A stretch of 36,303 nt of DNA from Alphaproteobacteria bacterium (GTDB taxonomy: Bacteria > Pseudomonadota > Alphaproteobacteria > SMXS01), in assembly GCA_030836535.1 (NCBI GenBank), contig JAURPT010000021.1, positions 1-36,303 of the forward strand, given 5' to 3'. The notes below the pieces were generated by a model that was given only the letters and a program-made list of their open reading frames with translations, had not been told where the DNA came from and searched no databases. Each line of letters starts with the position of its first letter. Position 1 is the first letter of the stretch. This document shows, in pieces, positions 24,276 to 35,061 of this stretch. The position numbers and the translations under genes were made by a program.

Positions 24276-25361
24276 CTATTGATCCAGTTCGAAATTGGAT
24301 GTGAATGTGCGGAAGTTTTTGTGGTCGTTGGAGCCATAAGGCACTGCATAAGGGGCTGCTACGCCCGGAAGGGTGTCTACGGAGAACAGCTCCCGTATAG
24401 GTCCTTGTAGGCGTATCCATTGCACGACGTCGCCATTGGTCAGGTCGATAATCTGTACGCCGCACCAGGGGTCTGCATTCCGCTTGGCGATTTCATCATC
24501 AAGCTGCAGGCCAGAAAACGAGCCATCGCGTGGTTCAGACAGGGTCGCAATGGCATATTTGCCGACAAAGCTCAGCCCGCGTAGGAAGCCGGGCATAAAG
24601 GCAATGTCTTCTGTTTTCCCTGTTTTTCGATCAACACGGCACAGATAACCACGGCCAGAATCTTCCACATAAAGCTGGTCATTGTAGACGCGCGGGCTAT
24701 GGGGCATCGACAGCCCCTCGGTGACGATGCGGTCATCGTCGGCCAAGTCGATCAGCAAGCCGCCTTCACCACGCCGGTTGCGCCATCCATCGACACTGTC
24801 GGACCGGGACACAGCCGTGACGTAGCGCGCTTTGCCGTCTTCCATCGCCAACCCATTCAGGTGGCAGCGGTCTTCAGGTGCCAGTTTGGAGATGAAGGTT
24901 GGCTTCCAGATGGCGCGGAACCCGTGGGTCAGGTCGAAACTCGCCAGGCAGGAGTAGAGTGTATTTACAAACAAAATTCGGCCATTGGGCTCCACACCCA
25001 GTTCGTGAATGTCGAGGTCGCCCGTCGCCTGCGTGTTGCGGGGTACGAACATGCGGTCATATTGCTGATTGGCGATCTGACCTGGCAGCAGGACATTTTC
25101 CAGCCGGGTCAGCTCAAAGGCTGTAGCGACGTAAATCCGCTGGCTATCTGCCCAAACGCCCATGGCCCGGTCGAAATTCTGCTGGTGAACAGATAGCGCC
25201 CCCGTCGGCAGGCGACCGATCATAAACAGCTGCCCGGTTTGGTAAGATGTAAGCGCGATAGAGATATTATTGGCGGCCAACCAGTCGACCATGCCGCGCG
25301 AACAGCTGATCTGCATATTGGTCTCAATACCCGTCTGGTGTGAATTTTCCGGTTGAGTCAT
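24276..25361 (-). CDS. TIGR03032 (DUF4915) family protein
   Basis: A 361-residue protein with no signal peptide, matching the conserved family TIGR03032 along its length: LTSYQTGQLFMIGR, FDRAMGVWAD, MFVPRNTQATGDLDIHELG, FVNTLYSCLASFD, FISKLAPEDRCHLNGLA, RYVTAVSRSDSVDGWR, LSMPHSPRVYNDQLYVEDSG, FMPGFLRGLSF and DPWCGVQIIDL. The repeated short strands suggest a beta-propeller. Members are of unknown biochemical function and, in my recollection, frequently occur near sulfotransferase genes; one lies 9 kb away here. Start ATG 25361 is divergent from the first GNAT-like gene. Confidence 0.85.
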   Translation of the reverse strand: MTQPENSHQTGIETNMQISCSRGMVDWLAANNISIALTSYQTGQLFMIGRLPTGALSVHQQNFDRAMGVWADSQRIYVATAFELTRLENVLLPGQIANQQYDRMFVPRNTQATGDLDIHELGVEPNGRILFVNTLYSCLASFDLTHGFRAIWKPTFISKLAPEDRCHLNGLAMEDGKARYVTAVSRSDSVDGWRNRRGEGGLLIDLADDDRIVTEGLSMPHSPRVYNDQLYVEDSGRGYLCRVDRKTGKTEDIAFMPGFLRGLSFVGKYAIATLSEPRDGSFSGLQLDDEIAKRNADPWCGVQIIDLTNGDVVQWIRLQGPIRELFSVDTLPGVAAPYAVPYGSNDHKNFRTFTSNFELDQ

Positions 25362-25461: not shown

Positions 25462-25995
25462 ATGCAAAACATTGTCGTAAACGACACAAACAGAGATGAA
25501 TTTCGTGACCGATTGGTGCGTTACTTCACTGATATCATTCCGTTACCACCGGAAGTCGGTATTGAAGAGCGCATCTCTGAGGTGGGCATGGTATGCGTGG
25601 AAAATGGTCGCATCATTGGTGTGGCAACGATTGCAAAAGTGCTGATCCGGCAGTTGGGCATGGATATGTGGTTCTATCGAACCAGGGTGTCGCCTGATCA
25701 CCGCCATGTTGATATTGCCCGGTCGCTGGCGAATGACCTTTACGCTCATATGGACGCGCAATATGAGCCGGGAAAGGGCATGCCTGTGGGGTTCTTTTAC
25801 CTGATCGAAGCAGAAGTGCTGATCCGGAACCTGCCGCATTGTGTATGGCCGACGACTGGAGCCGTCTTTATTGGCCTGGACAATATGGGCCGGCAGCGAA
25901 GTATCAAATATTTCACCCGGGCGATGCTGGATGACCCGTGGGAAACATCACAGCGGGTTGTCCGGCAGGCAGTAGAGCAACCACGCGTCATGTAG
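25462..25995 (+). CDS. GNAT-like protein, first copy, preceding an autotransporter
   Basis: A 177-residue cytoplasmic protein. I chose ATG 25462 (AAGGTG 7 bases upstream) because the start MQNIVVNDTN aligns with MQYVLINDAN of the second copy at 29360; longer in-frame starts reach 25360. The core has GVATIAKV, a strand, WFYRT, then VSPDHRHVDIARSLANDLY, which resembles the acetyl-CoA-binding turn of GNAT enzymes but with Asp where the usual second Gly or Gly/Ala stands. HMDA, a C-terminal WP..GA and YFT are shared with the paralogue. It is followed 117 bases later by the first autotransporter. A transferase role, perhaps modifying the autotransporter, is inference; I recognise no named family. 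Confidence 0.7.
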   Translation: MQNIVVNDTNRDEFRDRLVRYFTDIIPLPPEVGIEERISEVGMVCVENGRIIGVATIAKVLIRQLGMDMWFYRTRVSPDHRHVDIARSLANDLYAHMDAQYEPGKGMPVGFFYLIEAEVLIRNLPHCVWPTTGAVFIGLDNMGRQRSIKYFTRAMLDDPWETSQRVVRQAVEQPRVM

Positions 25996-26112
25996 ATGGC
26001 TGCTCTGGTGATGGCTGACAAGAAAGAGGTCGTGGGGTCAATAATTCAAATTTTAATCAAACTAGAACTATTGGCTGCCGGAAATTGACCACGCTTGAAA
26101 GGGAGTATTGTA

Positions 26113-29100
26113 ATGTTTAACAAGGTGCCGAAAAGCATGAAGCGGATGCTTGGGAATCAGGCAATTGCCGCAGAAGGGCCAGGTACGTCCGGGAATTCGA
26201 AAATTGCTGCTGTATCTGTTTTGGCGCTGTCGACGGGAGTTGGCCTCTCCCAGGGGGTTGATGCCTCGACCAATGTCTGCGCAGGCGCAACAGCCGGTGA
26301 TACCGTTACCATAACAGATGCAGGAAACCCCTATGCGGCTGCGACGCTTTGCCATGTTGAAGACATTACGCTTGTCCTGCAGGGTGATAATGGCGGCACG
26401 CAGACACCAGTCATCATCAATACACTGGTAGATGATGCTCTCGGTATCCGTGTAGATGGTACCCAAGGCGCCGGTATCACTGTTATTACAGAAGCTGGGT
26501 CGTCCATCACCACGGGTGGGAATACGGGCTTCGACGGCATAGAACTCATCAGCCTTAACGGGGCCGATATCGACGCCGATTTGTCCGGCGATATCAATAC
26601 GAGCCTGAACTTTAACGATGGTGTTTTTGTGCTTGGCTCGGGTGGGGCGAACATCGACGTGTACCACGACGGTAATATCCACACGACCGGTGGCCACCAG
26701 GCTATCGGCATCTGGGTAGTTGGTGGCGGTGAGAATATGTCGATTTACAATGCCGGGTCGATCATCACAGAAGGCGGGGGTAGCTCTGGCGGCATTGTCG
26801 TTAGTTCCTCGCCTGTCTCTGATACTTTCTTGATGGGTAATAGTGGCGCCATCGAGACAAGCGGCCTTGGCAGTGAAGGTTTGATGTTGTTCGGGCGGGG
26901 CGTTACAGGCTCCATTGTGAACTCAGGTGAGATTGTGACATCAAGCAGGTATACTGCCGGTATTGCCGTCTAAACGCACTACGATACTGATGTGGCTATC
27001 GATGTTGCTGGTGACATCGTCACGTCTGGTGATCGATCTCCCGGCATCCGATTCATCAATTGGCAAGATGATGGAGAAGGCGATACCGTCATTGATGTTT
27101 CGGGTTCTATCTCAACGTCAGGTGATGGCTACAGCACTGATAATTACACGGGAATTGGTAACCAAGGCATTGCTGTACATACCAAGTATAATGATACCTT
27201 CATTGATGTCAGCGGTACAGTTACGACCTCAGGCGAAAATGCAGCGGGCATTCTGTCTGGCCACAAATATGGCGGGACCACGACAATCACCAGCACAGGC
27301 GCCGTCATGGCAACCGGCGAGGAGGCGATCGGCATTGAGGTCGAAGCCTATGATGGCGTCTATGTGCAGGTAACAGATGTCTCTGGCACTTATCACGGCT
27401 TGGATATCTCGACGGTAGAGGGACCCGTTGAGGTTACGGTCGATGGTACGGTTGTGGGGGGTATCGATGGTGGCGGCATTGTCATTACAGCCCCCGTCTC
27501 CAGCAGCACCGCTATTAACGCAGATGGCAGTGTTGGTGCGGCTTCTGGCCTGGCGATTGATACGACGTTTTACGACGACACCGAGAGCGAAGACAGCGTT
27601 ACCTCATACGGGGTGATTGCTGGTAACATTGTGCTGGGTGATGGCAGTGATTCTGTCCTGTTTGGCGACGACGCTGATCTAAGCCTGCTAGGCACAGTTG
27701 ATGGCGGTGATGACACCTCCGTGGCAGATGGTTTTATCGATACCCTGACGTTCAATGGTATCACCGCAGACATTGCACCCGACGGCTTTGAGAACTTCGA
27801 GCTTTTTGTTGTTGACGATGCCCAGATCACCCTGAGTGGTGCAGGGATGTTAATGACGTCTGGCGACGACGGTTATGGCGCCTTTGTCCAGAACAACAGC
27901 TGGCTTGGCTTTGGTATGGGTGTTGACCTTGAAGGCAATTTACATGTGGATGCTACATCCGCTGTTTCGGGCGCGGGAGCGAACCCGACGGTCTATGGCG
28001 ACCTGTTCCTTGAAGGGGCCATTGACCTGGTAGATGGTTCTGCCGATGACACCTTCACGGTAACAGGCAATGCACTGTCCGATGGCGGCGTTTTGGCTGT
28101 TGATGCGGGCTTCAGCGGGTTCAGTGCCATTACCGGCGATGGCCTGGTGATCGAAGGCGATCTGACGGGTGATCTGTTGGTTGATGTCAACCTACTGGAA
28201 GAGGTGAGCCCGGAGGTCGACGACCCGCTGGTTGTCGTTGAGGGTGAGGTTGATGGCACAGTGTCTCTATTGAACCCGATTCAGGGGATCGTCAGTTTTG
28301 ACCTGAAAGAAGATGGCGACAGCCAACGCTGGTATCTCGTGAATGATGGCGTGTTGTACCCGGTGAATGCCTATGAGGCACTGAACAGTGTTGTTGGGGC
28401 TCAATTGTTGCGTAGCATGGGTACGCTGCGCCAGCGTGTTGGTGCACCCTCTATGTGGGACCCGAAGGAACGGGTCGAAGAAGGCTTGTGGTTCCGCGGT
28501 GTTTATGACCATTCAAAGGGTGATGCCGGTCTTACGGAGAATGCGGGCCGGTTCAAGGGTGACCGTATCTTTGGTCAGCTTGGCCTTGATCTCCTGAATG
28601 GCGAGAAGGACGACCGCAGCTGGGTGGGTACGGTGTTTGGGACCATCGGGTCGAGCGAGGTTGACAATTTCGACATAGCCGGTGCCCGCGTTGGCGAGAC
28701 AGAGGTAGATGATTATGGCTTCGGTGTCGGTTTTACCTGGTATCGCGGCGGTAACTTCTTCATCGACGCTGTGTTCCAGATGCTGTGGCATGACATCAAT
28801 ATGGAAAGCCTTGGCAACATTACCGCGAATACGGATGGCGACACGATCATGGCAAGCCTTGAGGCAGGCTATCGGTTTGACCTGGATGATGGCTGGTACC
28901 TGTCGCCCGAGGCACAGGTGATCTGGTCCCGCACAGATATTGATGACTATGTGGATAGTGTTGTGCTTGCTGTTGTCCATGGCAATAAAGGCAAGAGTGT
29001 CGTTGGCCGGTTTGGCATGACCCTGGAGAAGGACGACGGGGATGACTTTGTTGGTTACCTGAAGGCCTCCCTGGTGAACGAGTTTGAAGGCGACGGGGGG

Positions 29101-29286
29101 CTTTGGATCAATGGTCAGCTGGTTGGCTATGACCATTCGGGGGCAGCGCTTGAACTGCAGGCCGGTGGTGCGTGGCGGCTGTCCGAGCGGACATATCTGT
29201 TCGGTGAGTTCAGCTACACCGATGATTTCTCAAATAGTGATGTCAAAATCATCGGCGGCAAACTTGGCGCTAAAACAACGTTCTAG
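26113..29286 (+). pseudogene. Autotransporter, first copy, split by an in-frame TAA
   Basis: Type V secreted protein: exported passenger plus C-terminal outer-membrane barrel. Start ATG 26113 follows AGGGAG by 7 bases (ATG 26095 is upstream of that site). TAA at 26971-26973 interrupts the frame after 286 codons, but the same frame continues to 29286 and both sides are clearly one protein: ...YTAGIAV, stop, THYDTDVAIDVAG. The second copy has YSAGIDVQAHFGPIDV, so the stop falls on the Gln codon (CAA to TAA). The passenger has many SG-x-V-x-T-x-G-x-x-S-x-GI repeats of a beta-helix. The barrel occupies about 28,480-29,286 and ends in Phe (GAKTTF). An unusual long N-terminus of about 50 residues precedes the mature protein. 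Confidence 0.85.
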
Positions 29287-29336
29287 GACCAACAGCAAGG
29301 CGCCTCATTGCGCAAGATAAGCACGCCAACTAGACT

Positions 29337-29361
29337 GGCCCCTCAACAGGGGGCCTTTCTT
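29337..29361 (+). terminator. Hairpin with T-rich tail overlapping the next gene's start
   Basis: GGCCCC (29337-29342), loop TCAACAG, GGGGCC (29350-29355), then TTTCTT. The right arm is the ribosome site of the second GNAT-like gene and the T-rich tail leads into its TTG start at 29360. It may act as a weak terminator for the first autotransporter, as an attenuator, or as a translation-limiting structure. Confidence 0.6.
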
Positions 29362-29836
29362 GCAATATGTGCTGATCAATGATGCGAACCGTGCCGATTA
29401 TCAAGAGCGGCTGGTCCATTACTACACCCATGTCATGCCACTGCCGGAGGTAGTGAAAATGCCGGTGCGCATCAGGCAGGTAGCCATCGCCTGTTTGGAC
29501 GACCAGGACATAGTCGGCGTCGCCACCATCCTGAAAGTGCATGTGCAGGACCTCGACCTGCCCATGTGGTTCTATCGTACCAGCGTGGCTGAAGACTATC
29601 GGCAGCGCGACATTGCCCGCACCCTGGCTAATACGCTCTATGACCACATGGATGCATCCTACCAGCCCGGCGATCCGCTGGGCTTCTATTACTTGGTGGA
29701 AAGCGCGACACTGATTGACAACAATAAGGAAGTTATTTGGCCGCGCATGGGTGCCTTTTATATGGGACGCGATGCCAAGGGCCGTGAAAAACGGGTGAAG
29801 TATTTCACCCAGGCCAGTCTGGCGCATCTGAGCTGA
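29360..29836 (+). CDS. GNAT-like protein, second copy, preceding an autotransporter
   Basis: A 158-residue paralogue of the 25,462 product, about half identical by eye. It begins at TTG 29360, the position that aligns with the ATG of the first copy; AGGGGG lies 5-10 bases upstream. It has GVATILKV, MWFYRT, VAEDYRQRDIARTLANTLYDHMDA, PLGFYYLVES, WPRMGAF and YFTQASL, all found at the same places in the first copy, including Asp in the RxxDIA turn. The first copy has a C-terminal extension of about 15 residues that is absent here. It is 130 bases before the second autotransporter start. No transmembrane or signal segment. Function unknown; GNAT-type acyl transfer is inference. Confidence 0.72.
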   Translation: MQYVLINDANRADYQERLVHYYTHVMPLPEVVKMPVRIRQVAIACLDDQDIVGVATILKVHVQDLDLPMWFYRTSVAEDYRQRDIARTLANTLYDHMDASYQPGDPLGFYYLVESATLIDNNKEVIWPRMGAFYMGRDAKGREKRVKYFTQASLAHLS

Positions 29837-29966
29837 GTTTGGTGGCCATCGCCTGGAATTGAGTTGCCAGCAGATACGCGATGCGGCAGAGTTCAAAGAT
29901 TGTTGGGGTATTTCGTTGCGTATGTTTCTTGCTGTTTGACAAGGCCTGTCGTCTTTGGGGGAAAAT

Positions 29967-32900
29967 ATGCCGGTTACTTCTGTTCATCCTGAATTTGGCG
30001 CGCGTGAGGCGACATTGATCAAAAGGCCCGCGACGACTTTGTTGGCTGCAACGTCTGTGGTTGCGCTGACCAACGGGCTTGCGCCTCTCGATGCGCAGGC
30101 GGTGGATGCCTGTGCGCCAGCCGTTCCAGGTGATACCGTCATCGTGCTGCCAGATGCGGGGCAATTTCCCACAGGGATTACGTGCGATGTTAATGATGTA
30201 ACCCTTGTCCTGCAGGGGGACAGCGACGCGCCGGTGATCATCGATACAGATGCAGCCCATGGTGTGCTGTTCGAGCCGATGCCGACAAGTGGTGCCGCAA
30301 CTTTTGTGGGTGAGGGCAGCACATCCGTCACCGTTTCTGATCCTTTCTATCATGGTGTCATTGTCGCGAGCGTTGATGGTCCCGTCGATGCGACCATGGC
30401 AGGCAATGTCACCACAAGTGGCGATTACAGTGTCGGCATTATCGGGGCGAGCTACTACGGCGATGTGTCAATTGATGTGTCGGGTAATGTCGATATTCTG
30501 GGAGATGGGGATTCTATAGGGGACTCACCGGGCATCCACGTCCATGCGCATTATGGCGCGGTTGATGTAACCCTGAGCGGAAATGTCGTAACTGCCCCCA
30601 AATATTCAGCCGGTATTGATGTACAGGCGCATTTTGGCCCTATCGACGTCGATGTAACAGCTAGCATTCAGACAATGGGGCGCCAATCGGCAGGTATTTT
30701 TTCTGTCAACACGGGTAATGTTGCGGACCCGGCTACGGTTGATGTCAGCGTGAGTGGCGGCACCATTGCGACCGCCGGGTTGGCGTCTGCAGGCATTGTT
30801 GCGGGCTCACAATATGATGCGGTGAATGTCACGCTCACTGACAGCAGCATTACGACGACTGGTGAACGGGGTGATGGTATTTATGCCGCCAGCGGCGCAG
30901 CGGGCATTACTGTTCTGGCGGATGACGCATCAGACATTGATACGCAGGGCTATTCGGCCACGGCAGTAACGGCGCGGGCGCGTGGTGGAGATGTTAGCAT
31001 TACCATGGACGGCGATGCCGCAACGGCGGGCCAATTTGCTGGCGGTGTTCAGGCTATTGCCGAAGAAGAAGGCAATGTATTTGTCGCGATAGGTGGTTCT
31101 GTTGCAACGCTTGGTGACAACGCCCAAGGCGTGCATGCGAGTGCAGGAGAAGGGACTGCGGAAGTGCATGTAAGCGGCAGTATTTCGACGCAAGGCGAAA
31201 GGGCTGGTGGTGTTGATGCCCGGTCCGATGCAGCTGTCATCATCGCGATTGATGGCTCGGTGGAAACTGAAGGGGCCTATTCAAACGGGGTTGACGTAGA
31301 CGCCAAATATAATGAGGGCTCGGCCGACATTTCAGTCAGTGGATCGGTTGCAACCATCGGCGATGGCTCCAACGCTATTGATGTCGACGTGAAATATAGT
31401 GCAGACATTGACGTTGCCGGCACCCTGACGACGCGCGGCAATAATGCCATCGGCATTCATTCTTCCAGCCACGAGGCTATTCTCTCGTCGACCAATGTTT
31501 CAGGTGACATTGAAACCTTTGGTGAAGAAGCATGGGGCATTGCGGCCAGCAACGACTATGGCGCACAAAATGTTAATGTCAGCGGTTCTGTAACGACACA
31601 TGGCGACTATTCTCGTGCTGTCCACGCGATCAGCCGCGGCAACGACGCGCCATATTATGGCGGCGTTAATATTGATGTTTCTGGCGCCGTTGTCTCTGCG
31701 GGCGACTATAGCGCTGGTGTCGCTGGTTATGCCTATGGTGGAGATGTCGACATTGATATTTCTGGCAATGTGTCGACGCAGGGTGTCTATAGCCATGGCG
31801 TTATGGCGATGGCAGATGGCGGTGTAGTTGACATCCGCGTTACAGGGGCAATCGCCGCGACGGGGGCAGATAGCACGGGCATTTTCGCGTACGCCACGGG
31901 TAGTACCCATGTTGAAGTCAACGATGTCCTGGGTGGTTTCGATGGTGTTGACGCATGGGCGGGGGCCAATGCTCTGACAGTCACCGTGAATGGTGCTGTT
32001 GTCGGCGGCACAGGTGCAGGCATACGGACACAGGCACCCTATGGGGCAAGTATCGTGGTCAGTGGTACTGGTTCTGTTTCTGCCGCCTCCGGCATCGCCA
32101 TCGATACCGCCGTAAACAACGATTATTCGGCCGACGACAGCGTGGCCGTCTCTGGCAGCGTTGTGGGAGATGTTTTCCTTCATAACGGCAGTGATCGTGT
32201 AACCTTTACGGCCAGCGCTGATGTGTCGGGTCTGGGTGTCATCGATGGCGGGGACGACAATTCTGTCGACGACGGCTTTATTGATCGTCTGTTGTTGGAG
32301 GGTACACAGGGCAGTGTAACTGGGACAACATTCCTGAATTTTGAAGATATTGTACTACGCGATGGTGCCGATATCACCATAACGGACATTGATGGCACAC
32401 CGCTGCAGGCTTCCTATGCCAATGGTTTCGGCCTCCACCTGGAAGATGGCAGCAAGCTCGACCTGTTGTCAGGTATCGATGTTCTGGCCAATATCGACAT
32501 CAACGACACCTCCCTGTTGGTGACGGGCGGGACTACAGACAGCCCGCACCGGCTAGACGGATGGGTCTATCTTGAAGGCGGCATCAGCATGGCCAGCGGG
32601 GCACCGACCGGCAACACCCGCATTGCTGATTTCCTGGCCTCTGAAGGTGGGTCGCTGACTGTTGATGCGGGTATCGGCGCAGGCGGCGAACCCATTACCG
32701 CCGATGTGTTGGTTGTGGAAGGCGACCTTGACGGAGACCTGAATATCTTCGTCAACACGCTTGATGAAGTGGGGCTGGAAACGGATGATCCTCTATTCGT
32801 GGTGCAGGGCGAAGTGAGCGGTGATGTGCAGCTTGGCCACCGGGTTGACCACGGCATTTACTATTTTGGGCTCGAGGAAGATGACCAGGCCTGGTACCTG

Positions 32901-33848
32901 GTCAATGATGGTATTTTCGAGCAGGTCTCTGCCTATGAAAGCGTTACTTCACTGCTCGGTGTGCAAAACCAGCAGACGATTGGCTCCCTGCGCCAACGAG
33001 TCGGGGCACGATCTGTCTGGGATGCAAAGAACCGCACGGCGCAGGCTGTATGGGTGCAGGGCGAATATCAGGACGCACGGGGTGATAGCGGCATAGGTGA
33101 CCATAGTGGTGGCTTCAGTGGCGACCGCCTTTTTGCCCAGCTGGGTATTGATGTTGTGGCCTTCGAAACGGGTGAAACCACCTTTGTTGCCTCTGTCTTC
33201 GGGACGCTGGGTAATAGTGATCTGGACGCGCGTGACATGAGCGGCGCGGCCACGGGTGGGGCAGATATTGATGACTACGGTGTTGGCGTAGGCATCACCC
33301 TGTATCACGGTGGCAACTTCTATCTAGATGCCGTGTTCCAGGCGTCGTGGCAGGATATCGATTTCGCCTCAGCCGGTGGCGTGACCGGCGAAACGAGTGC
33401 CGATGGCCTCAGTGGCGCGATAGAACTGGGCTATAATGTTGACCTGTCCAATGGCTGGTCTCTGGCGCCACAGGCGCAACTGGTATTGGGCAGCATCGAT
33501 ATCGATGACTATGTCGACAGTGATGCCATTGCGGTGGCCCAAATTGGCAAGGCCAAGAGTGTGTTGGGCCGCTTTGGCCTGACGCTAGAGCGTAACACCG
33601 GGGGTAATTTCATCGGCTATCTTCGCACTGGTATCAGTGAAGAATTCAAAGGTGGCGGCCAGCTGGTCTTCAATGGCCAGACGGTGGGCTGGGATTATGG
33701 CGGGACCAGTATTGAGGTGTTGCTGGGCGGTTCCTACAGGCTCGGTGAAAACAGCCATATCTTTGCTGAGTTCAATTATGCGGACCATCTCAGCGGGCCG
33801 GGTATTCGACGAACTGGTGGTAAGGCCGGGCTGCGGATAGGGTTTTAA
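29967..33848 (+). CDS. Autotransporter, second copy, intact
   Basis: Autotransporter of 1,293 residues from ATG 29967 (GGGGGA upstream; TTG 29955 precedes that site). The N-terminus PVTSVHPEFGAREATLIKRP precedes a hydrophobic signal core TTLLAATSVVALTNG and LDAQA. Mature residues begin with ACAPAVPGDTV...TCDVNDVTLVLQGD, a two-Cys module also present in the first copy. The passenger is made of imperfect repeats of about 20-45 residues built on V-S-G-x-V-x-T-x-G-x-Y-S-x-G-I/V, predicting a long right-handed beta-helix. A linker with VLVVEGDLDGDL and GEVSGDV leads to LRQRVGARSVWDAK and the 12-strand barrel (about 33,040-33,848) ending in LRIGF. Likely a surface adhesin or matrix protein; role not shown by sequence. 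Confidence 0.92.
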   Translation: MPVTSVHPEFGAREATLIKRPATTLLAATSVVALTNGLAPLDAQAVDACAPAVPGDTVIVLPDAGQFPTGITCDVNDVTLVLQGDSDAPVIIDTDAAHGVLFEPMPTSGAATFVGEGSTSVTVSDPFYHGVIVASVDGPVDATMAGNVTTSGDYSVGIIGASYYGDVSIDVSGNVDILGDGDSIGDSPGIHVHAHYGAVDVTLSGNVVTAPKYSAGIDVQAHFGPIDVDVTASIQTMGRQSAGIFSVNTGNVADPATVDVSVSGGTIATAGLASAGIVAGSQYDAVNVTLTDSSITTTGERGDGIYAASGAAGITVLADDASDIDTQGYSATAVTARARGGDVSITMDGDAATAGQFAGGVQAIAEEEGNVFVAIGGSVATLGDNAQGVHASAGEGTAEVHVSGSISTQGERAGGVDARSDAAVIIAIDGSVETEGAYSNGVDVDAKYNEGSADISVSGSVATIGDGSNAIDVDVKYSADIDVAGTLTTRGNNAIGIHSSSHEAILSSTNVSGDIETFGEEAWGIAASNDYGAQNVNVSGSVTTHGDYSRAVHAISRGNDAPYYGGVNIDVSGAVVSAGDYSAGVAGYAYGGDVDIDISGNVSTQGVYSHGVMAMADGGVVDIRVTGAIAATGADSTGIFAYATGSTHVEVNDVLGGFDGVDAWAGANALTVTVNGAVVGGTGAGIRTQAPYGASIVVSGTGSVSAASGIAIDTAVNNDYSADDSVAVSGSVVGDVFLHNGSDRVTFTASADVSGLGVIDGGDDNSVDDGFIDRLLLEGTQGSVTGTTFLNFEDIVLRDGADITITDIDGTPLQASYANGFGLHLEDGSKLDLLSGIDVLANIDINDTSLLVTGGTTDSPHRLDGWVYLEGGISMASGAPTGNTRIADFLASEGGSLTVDAGIGAGGEPITADVLVVEGDLDGDLNIFVNTLDEVGLETDDPLFVVQGEVSGDVQLGHRVDHGIYYFGLEEDDQAWYLVNDGIFEQVSAYESVTSLLGVQNQQTIGSLRQRVGARSVWDAKNRTAQAVWVQGEYQDARGDSGIGDHSGGFSGDRLFAQLGIDVVAFETGETTFVASVFGTLGNSDLDARDMSGAATGGADIDDYGVGVGITLYHGGNFYLDAVFQASWQDIDFASAGGVTGETSADGLSGAIELGYNVDLSNGWSLAPQAQLVLGSIDIDDYVDSDAIAVAQIGKAKSVLGRFGLTLERNTGGNFIGYLRTGISEEFKGGGQLVFNGQTVGWDYGGTSIEVLLGGSYRLGENSHIFAEFNYADHLSGPGIRRTGGKAGLRIGF

Positions 33849-34296: not shown

Positions 34297-35061
34297 GTGC
34301 TTTTGTTCCGGGTATCCAGAAAAATCGGCAGCCACGCCTTTATCTGCGGGTGTGGCCATAGTGGCACGACCCTGATCGCTACCATTCTGGGGACGCATAG
34401 CCAGATTTATGTGCCGCCAAGAGAGACCGCGATCTTTATGCCGCCGCGCAGGCCCTTAGGCATCGGGTCAATCAAAAGATACCGGCTTTGCGTGGGCGAA
34501 GCACTGGCGGCGGGCAAGCAGATTTTGATCGAAAAAACACCAAAACATATCGAGCATGTTGATCTGATCCGGGCGCAGATCCCCGGCGCCAAATTCATTA
34601 TCCCTGTGCGGGACGGCCGTGATGTTGCAACATCCATCATGCGCCGCAAGTTGGACCTTGGCGTGGGCGTTGATAGGTGGATACGCGACAACAATCTGGT
34701 TTCGAACGAACTGCATAAGGAAGACGTGTTTGTCTATCGGCATGAAGATCTGGTTAAGGACCCAGTTGGGGTTCTGAAGAAAATTTGCGGTTTCGTTGAA
34801 GTCGATTATGAAGAGACGATGCTGGAGTATCACAAGCAGCAAACTCTGTGGAATGGGGCGCAGAATGTTGGGGCCACGGCAGAGAGAACAGGCCGCCATC
34901 ACAACCAGAACCGCACCTGGCAGGTGAACCAGCCGATTTTCGATGCCAGTGGTACTTGGCGAAACTATGCTTCCGAGGAAGAGTTACAGGAAATCACCAC
35001 AGGCAGGGGCCGCCCGCTTATGGAACTGTTTGGCTACCTTTCGGCAGAAGGCACCAGATAG
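34297..35061 (+). CDS. Sulfotransferase
   Basis: PAPS-dependent sulfotransferase of 254 residues that moves sulfate to a hydroxyl or amino group of a glycan, lipid or other acceptor. It begins at GTG 34297. The 5'-phosphosulfate loop is CGCGHSGTTL (about residues 18-27), and the 3'-phosphate motif is IPVRDGRDVATSIMRRKL with the conserved Arg and Ser. FVYRHEDLVKDP and WRNYASEEELQEI are also typical. There is no signal peptide, so it acts in the cytoplasm. Together with the autotransporters and TIGR03032-type gene it suggests a surface polysaccharide or glycoconjugate, but no glycosyltransferase lies in the window. Confidence 0.88.
   Translation: MLLFRVSRKIGSHAFICGCGHSGTTLIATILGTHSQIYVPPRETAIFMPPRRPLGIGSIKRYRLCVGEALAAGKQILIEKTPKHIEHVDLIRAQIPGAKFIIPVRDGRDVATSIMRRKLDLGVGVDRWIRDNNLVSNELHKEDVFVYRHEDLVKDPVGVLKKICGFVEVDYEETMLEYHKQQTLWNGAQNVGATAERTGRHHNQNRTWQVNQPIFDASGTWRNYASEEELQEITTGRGRPLMELFGYLSAEGTR

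Follow-up and report, generated by a model that had tools for sequence, protein, structure and literature searches.

Autotransporters are generally portrayed as requiring few accessory proteins. The locus examined here raises the question of why each of two tandem autotransporter genes is directly preceded by a gene for a small protein, and of what that protein does. The locus lies in a 36,303-nucleotide stretch of DNA (hereafter, the window), which is the entire contig of a 183-contig, 2.68-Mb alphaproteobacterial genome. An earlier note, made from the sequence, had proposed that the small proteins are GNAT-like modifiers dedicated to the autotransporters and that the pair had been copied as a unit. 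We refer to the small proteins as S1 and S2, to their family as S, and to the autotransporters as AT1 and AT2.

Results

A duplicated S–autotransporter unit

The window carries two consecutive pairs on its forward strand, in the order S1-AT1-S2-AT2, and the open reading frames of the two small paralogues, each standing before a large autotransporter, were found as the earlier note had described them. S1 (177 amino acids; 25462–25995) precedes AT1 (26095–29286), whose passenger contains an in-frame TAA stop (26971–26973) and whose beta-barrel, PF03797, occupies 28486–29211 (E=9.6e-33). S2 (158 amino acids, TTG start; 29360–29836) precedes AT2 (29955–33848), which has an intact frame of 1297 amino acids, T-x-G-[DEN]-x-[AS]-x-G repeats and a PF03797 barrel at 33048–33776 (E=1.8e-30). 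When the full proteins were searched, PF03797 matched AT1 with E 2e-31 and AT2 with E 1e-28. The C-terminal residue is phenylalanine in both, and AT2 has a hydrophobic N-terminal stretch as judged by eye. By the PF03797 barrel with its terminal aromatic residue, AT1 and AT2 are both predicted to be type Va autotransporters. Since AT1 is broken by the TAA, which may be either a real stop or an assembly error, the intact frame in this assembly is that of AT2 only.

S1 and S2, the only S copies in the source genome, share 47–49% identity, and AT1 and AT2 share 44% identity across about 710 residues; this comparable divergence fits a single duplication of the unit. In the respective trees, S1 and S2 were sisters (support 100/100), as were the barrels of AT1 and AT2 (100/99), as expected from one unit duplication. 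Thus, the S–autotransporter unit was duplicated, and both the paralogy of the autotransporters and their copying together with the small genes, as claimed previously, are borne out. The two-cysteine N-terminus that had been cited as a shared trait is no specific mark, as at least two cysteines occur in all the other autotransporters compared. Likewise, the unit does comprise S and the autotransporter, but it reaches beyond two genes: a DUF4915/TIGR03032 gene (24276–25361, reverse strand), divergent from S1, also belongs to it.

Some other features of the window are recorded here. A terminator-like hairpin at 29337–29355 on the forward strand, a scan match only, lies just 5′ of S2; it ends 4 bases 5′ of the TTG start and includes the SD-like AGGGGG of S2. 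The second gene past AT2 encodes a sulfotransferase (34297–35061, forward strand; PF13469, E=5e-21), whose link to the S–autotransporter unit is uncertain; no relative of it was found at the other loci. PADLOC gave no match.

Distribution of the S family

S1 and S2 are members of an undescribed protein family, for which there is no Pfam or NCBIfam model and for which no paper was found in the open-licence literature. Its relatives are scarce across the genomes sampled. Searching with a single protein in 95 further genomes, most of them drawn from across the class, yielded no S relative. Neither did plasmids and phages, nor pattern scans of genome contigs; the latter outcome reflects the limited reach of such scans, as profile searches of whole genomes did find relatives. 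A profile built from S1 and S2 detected three distant relatives among 385 genomes of the class, all in one genus (g192), and the profile extended with these relatives matched genome G329 with E 9.2e-32; matches of the extended profile at E > 0.001 were left out. In the family of G329, 21 of 40 genomes carry S, at up to eight copies each and all in one genus, which was taken as Parvibaculum. Among 398 genomes sampled from the phylum, the source genome alone carried S. The profile searches gave 50 S copies across 24 genomes, mostly Parvibaculum. Two candidates were set aside: a viral one (L008), a short frame that looks GIY-YIG-like by eye and shares little beyond an MWFY stretch, and L012, where the match falls within a UbiB-like kinase frame.

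Most S clusters lie near genes for exported surface proteins

We grouped the 50 S copies into 33 gene clusters and counted a PF03797 barrel when it lay within 6 kb. The possibility that the homologues lie mostly away from autotransporters was put to the test in this way, and a barrel was found in 17 of the 33 clusters, whereas the per-genome barrel counts predict 0.63. The naive P of ~1e-21 is overstated because about 10 of the 17 autotransporter clusters represent one orthologous Parvibaculum locus. There were at least five arrangements: S-AT-S-AT in the window, DUF4915-AT-S, DUF4915-AT followed by a fused SS protein, SS-AT-DUF4915, and two or three tandem S genes before runs of autotransporters (AT, autotransporter). 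Curlin-repeat genes accompany S in 5/33 clusters, with csgH also present in four of these five, and an outer-membrane protein gene adjoins S in 4/33.

An autotransporter, curlin or outer-membrane protein partner was thereby recognised in 26 of the 33 clusters. In the remaining seven, the contig ends beside S once (L145), an autotransporter remnant is present once (L146), and no exported partner was recognised in five (L018, L152, L153, L160 and L162). These results demonstrate a genomic association of the S family with exported surface proteins. The dedication to exported proteins that had been proposed is supported, but the range of partners is broader than autotransporters and takes in curlin and outer-membrane proteins too. 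The S tree agreed with partner type, requiring eight label changes where the minimum possible is six and the mean after shuffling is 28.8, an agreement to which near-identical orthologues contribute. Many autotransporters stand without any S, and so do many DUF4915 loci.

Multiplied S genes were observed in two forms. Tandem arrays comprise six genes in L152 (8227–11453) and four in L153 (9239–11284), in both cases with no exported neighbour recognised; fused double S proteins are encoded at or near an autotransporter in L156 (6095–7252 and 12382–13398) and L157 (4859–6010).

The DUF4915 companion

The 361-residue product of the DUF4915 gene scores above the curated cut-offs of both PF16261 (404.6 bits against 35; E=3.8e-121) and TIGR03032 (392.4 against 251.5; E=1.5e-117). 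PF16261 is present in 51 of the 385 genomes of the class, and in the loci fetched DUF4915 directly adjoins an autotransporter in four families (f1, f10, f116 and f121); in G002, from the same family as the source genome, the adjoining protein has 4265 amino acids. We labelled 16 DUF4915 members as autotransporter-linked, L096 and L100, with giant neighbours that match no Pfam family, by eye. These members cluster in the DUF4915 tree (4 changes versus 13.4 after shuffling), and the gene in the window falls inside their clade. About two-fifths of the fetched DUF4915 loci have neither an autotransporter nor a giant FG-GAP/RTX/cadherin protein as a neighbour. DUF4915 is a more regular partner of giant exported repeat proteins than S is. 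No paper naming TIGR03032 or DUF4915, or giving a function for DUF4915, was found in the open-licence literature.

DUF4915 was also seen beside giant FG-GAP/RTX/cadherin proteins (L070, L071, L074, L076, L078–L082, L085, L097 and L104), and a wider link to type I secretion is possible. A 2OG-Fe(II) oxygenase gene lies close to DUF4915 at L038, L139, L141–L144, L147, L149 and L150, and at L088–L090; it occurs in most of the Parvibaculum DUF4915-AT-S loci in addition to L088–L090, and the window contains none.

S proteins have a probable GNAT-like fold and a degenerate CoA loop

Several weak but agreeing lines point to a GNAT-like fold for S. Of 49 members, 15 match Pfam Acetyltransf_1 (PF00583; best E 0.0012) and eight match Acetyltransf_7 (PF13508; best E 1.2e-4). 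A profile of the 49 members gave 20 matches among PDB sequences at E 0.05–0.93, of which 18 are named acetyltransferases, mostly aligned over the same stretch; with a smaller S profile, all 14 matches were acetyltransferases. An AlphaFold model of S2, computed without relatives, had a pLDDT of 56 and an element order, E-H-E-E-E-H-E-H-E-E-H, compatible with GNAT. The 50 Foldseek matches listed for this pLDDT-56 model were all acetyltransferases or complexes with one (best E 4.5e-5, TM ~0.45), and VIA-align gave Z values up to 8.9, a best Z of 7–8 being usual when a model has no clear match. GNAT-like is a tentative label for the predicted fold, and it does not extend to the curated GNAT profiles, whose cut-offs were not reached by S1, S2 or the other members whose scores were listed, or to the CoA loop.

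The Q/RxxGxG/A CoA loop is degenerate among the 49 members (first R/Q in 30, first G in 10, A/G in 31), and we did not file S as a standard CoA-using GNAT because this loop is not conserved. Eight residues are conserved in at least 45 of the 49: W22, R37, R73, G108, Q143, R145, W148 and H151, the last being the sole conserved histidine (45/49). S1 and S2 lack W7, W22, W148 and H151, which are conserved in other members.

Passenger composition

Lysine makes up 0.1–2.2% of the autotransporter proteins compared, so that the passengers are lysine-poor, and AT2 offers few candidate modification sites. We counted the repeat T-x-G-[DEN]-x-[AS]-x-G per 1000 residues as a possible mark of S-linked passengers. 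It reached 5.4–7.3 in AT2 and the listed DUF4915-AT-S and AT-SS proteins, 0 and 2.6 in the two frames of AT1, 0–0.8 in five autotransporters after or beside tandem S genes (SS-AT), and 0–1.8 in autotransporters with DUF4915 only. Near zero in SS-AT and low in AT1, the repeat was rejected as a mark of S linkage; it characterises some S-linked passengers and does not tell S-linked autotransporters apart from others.

Discussion

Among known systems, HlyC and CdiC would be the closest precedents for S, by analogy. HlyC-type acyltransferases are GNAT-like and lack the CoA elements (PMC8339906), and S resembles the HlyC/RtxC proteins of the HlyC-HlyA and ApxIC systems in its small size, its gene beside that of an exported partner, and a probable GNAT-like fold without the usual CoA elements (PMC8339906). 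It differs in three respects: the families listed for the 49 members at E up to 0.05 do not include PF02794 (HlyC), no N-terminal histidine is conserved, and S is paired with autotransporters, curlin and outer-membrane proteins rather than RTX toxins. CdiC of class IV CDI is an HlyC-type acyltransferase dedicated to, and acylating, the type Vb effector CdiA (PMC8510554). Here too, as is probable for the S–autotransporter pairs, a gene is dedicated to one large protein of the type V secretion route (PMC8510554); CdiC, however, is an HlyC homologue with a type Vb substrate, whereas S has no HlyC match and partners that are type Va and others, and the catalytic histidine that CdiC has near its N-terminus, along with an aspartate (H37 and D107), has no conserved counterpart among the 49 S members. 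The example of CdiC weakens the earlier suggestion that a GNAT-like modifier for an autotransporter would be new (PMC8510554). TibC is a heptosyltransferase acting on TibA and AIDA-I (PMC4358343); TibC and Aah are like S in being paired with an autotransporter, but they are glycosyltransferases and not GNAT-like. S was not filed under the HlyC, CdiC or TibC type because it lacks the signatures tested. AT1 and AT2, for their part, resemble type Va autotransporters in the PF03797 barrel and differ in having S and DUF4915 as companions, which the papers found do not describe.

S proteins probably help or modify particular exported surface proteins to which they are dedicated, and it is very likely that each S is a dedicated partner of the exported protein encoded next to it. 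Each would pair with the adjoining beta-rich protein, whether an autotransporter, a curlin subunit or an outer-membrane protein. S would be cytoplasmic, as its N-termini, read by eye, suggest, and would bind its partner and act on it there, ahead of Sec export; at autotransporter loci it would work alongside DUF4915. As a tentative proposal, S would acylate its partner, and the acyl group would come from acyl-ACP or from some other donor whose binding does not involve a standard CoA loop. We put forward just as tentatively the whole reading, namely a GNAT-like, dedicated cytoplasmic partner that acts before export, most likely by acyl transfer. Several observations weigh against it: the degenerate CoA loop, the conserved residues missing from S1 and S2, the lysine-poor passengers with few candidate sites in AT2, the low confidence of the structure model, the single orthologous Parvibaculum locus behind about ten of the autotransporter clusters, and the many autotransporters and DUF4915 loci that stand without S.

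Alternatively, S might be a GNAT-fold chaperone or pilot without catalytic activity, which the degenerate CoA loop would suit; it would bind its partner in the cytoplasm and maintain it in a state competent for export. The partners resemble one another in being exported and rich in beta structure, not in any target sequence, and tandem or fused S copies could bind long repeats. This is a serious possibility about which we are nonetheless doubtful: the retention of R37, R73, Q143, R145, W148 and H151 in at least 45 of 49 members goes beyond the apparent need of a binding surface, and CdiC shows that an acyltransferase route exists (PMC8510554).

Two further explanations appear improbable. S might act on some other envelope target, such as a lipid or small molecule, its neighbourhood reflecting shared regulation only. 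The five clusters without an exported neighbour, which include the arrays of six and four S genes, favour such a role, but the S tree tracks partner type, S was duplicated together with an autotransporter in the window, and it precedes tandem autotransporters elsewhere; we regard this explanation as unlikely. Slightly less likely still is that the copies in the window are a decaying remnant, with S1-AT1 broken and S1 and S2 deprived of the conserved residues of the family. The in-frame stop in AT1, the missing W7, W22, W148 and H151 and the S1/S2 branch length of 3.3 are in line with decay, but AT2 has an intact frame, as have S1 and S2, which also retain their 47–49% identity with conserved blocks, and the AT1 stop may be a base-call error.

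Returning to S as a dedicated partner acting before export, a larger, rather speculative and on balance unlikely extension is that S, DUF4915 and, in Parvibaculum, the 2OG-Fe(II) oxygenase make up a cassette of general use in the cytoplasmic maturation of giant surface proteins destined for export, in which S would be the first acyltransferase family known for type Va autotransporters and curli. DUF4915 is widespread, and the giant repeat proteins beside it are exported by two secretion routes. The type strain Parvibaculum lavamentivorans DS-1, whose genome is sequenced, seems to have an S locus, which would make the system experimentally tractable. The recurrence of S beside autotransporters, curlin and outer-membrane proteins, and that of DUF4915 beside giant exported proteins, point to an undescribed step that precedes the export of surface proteins.
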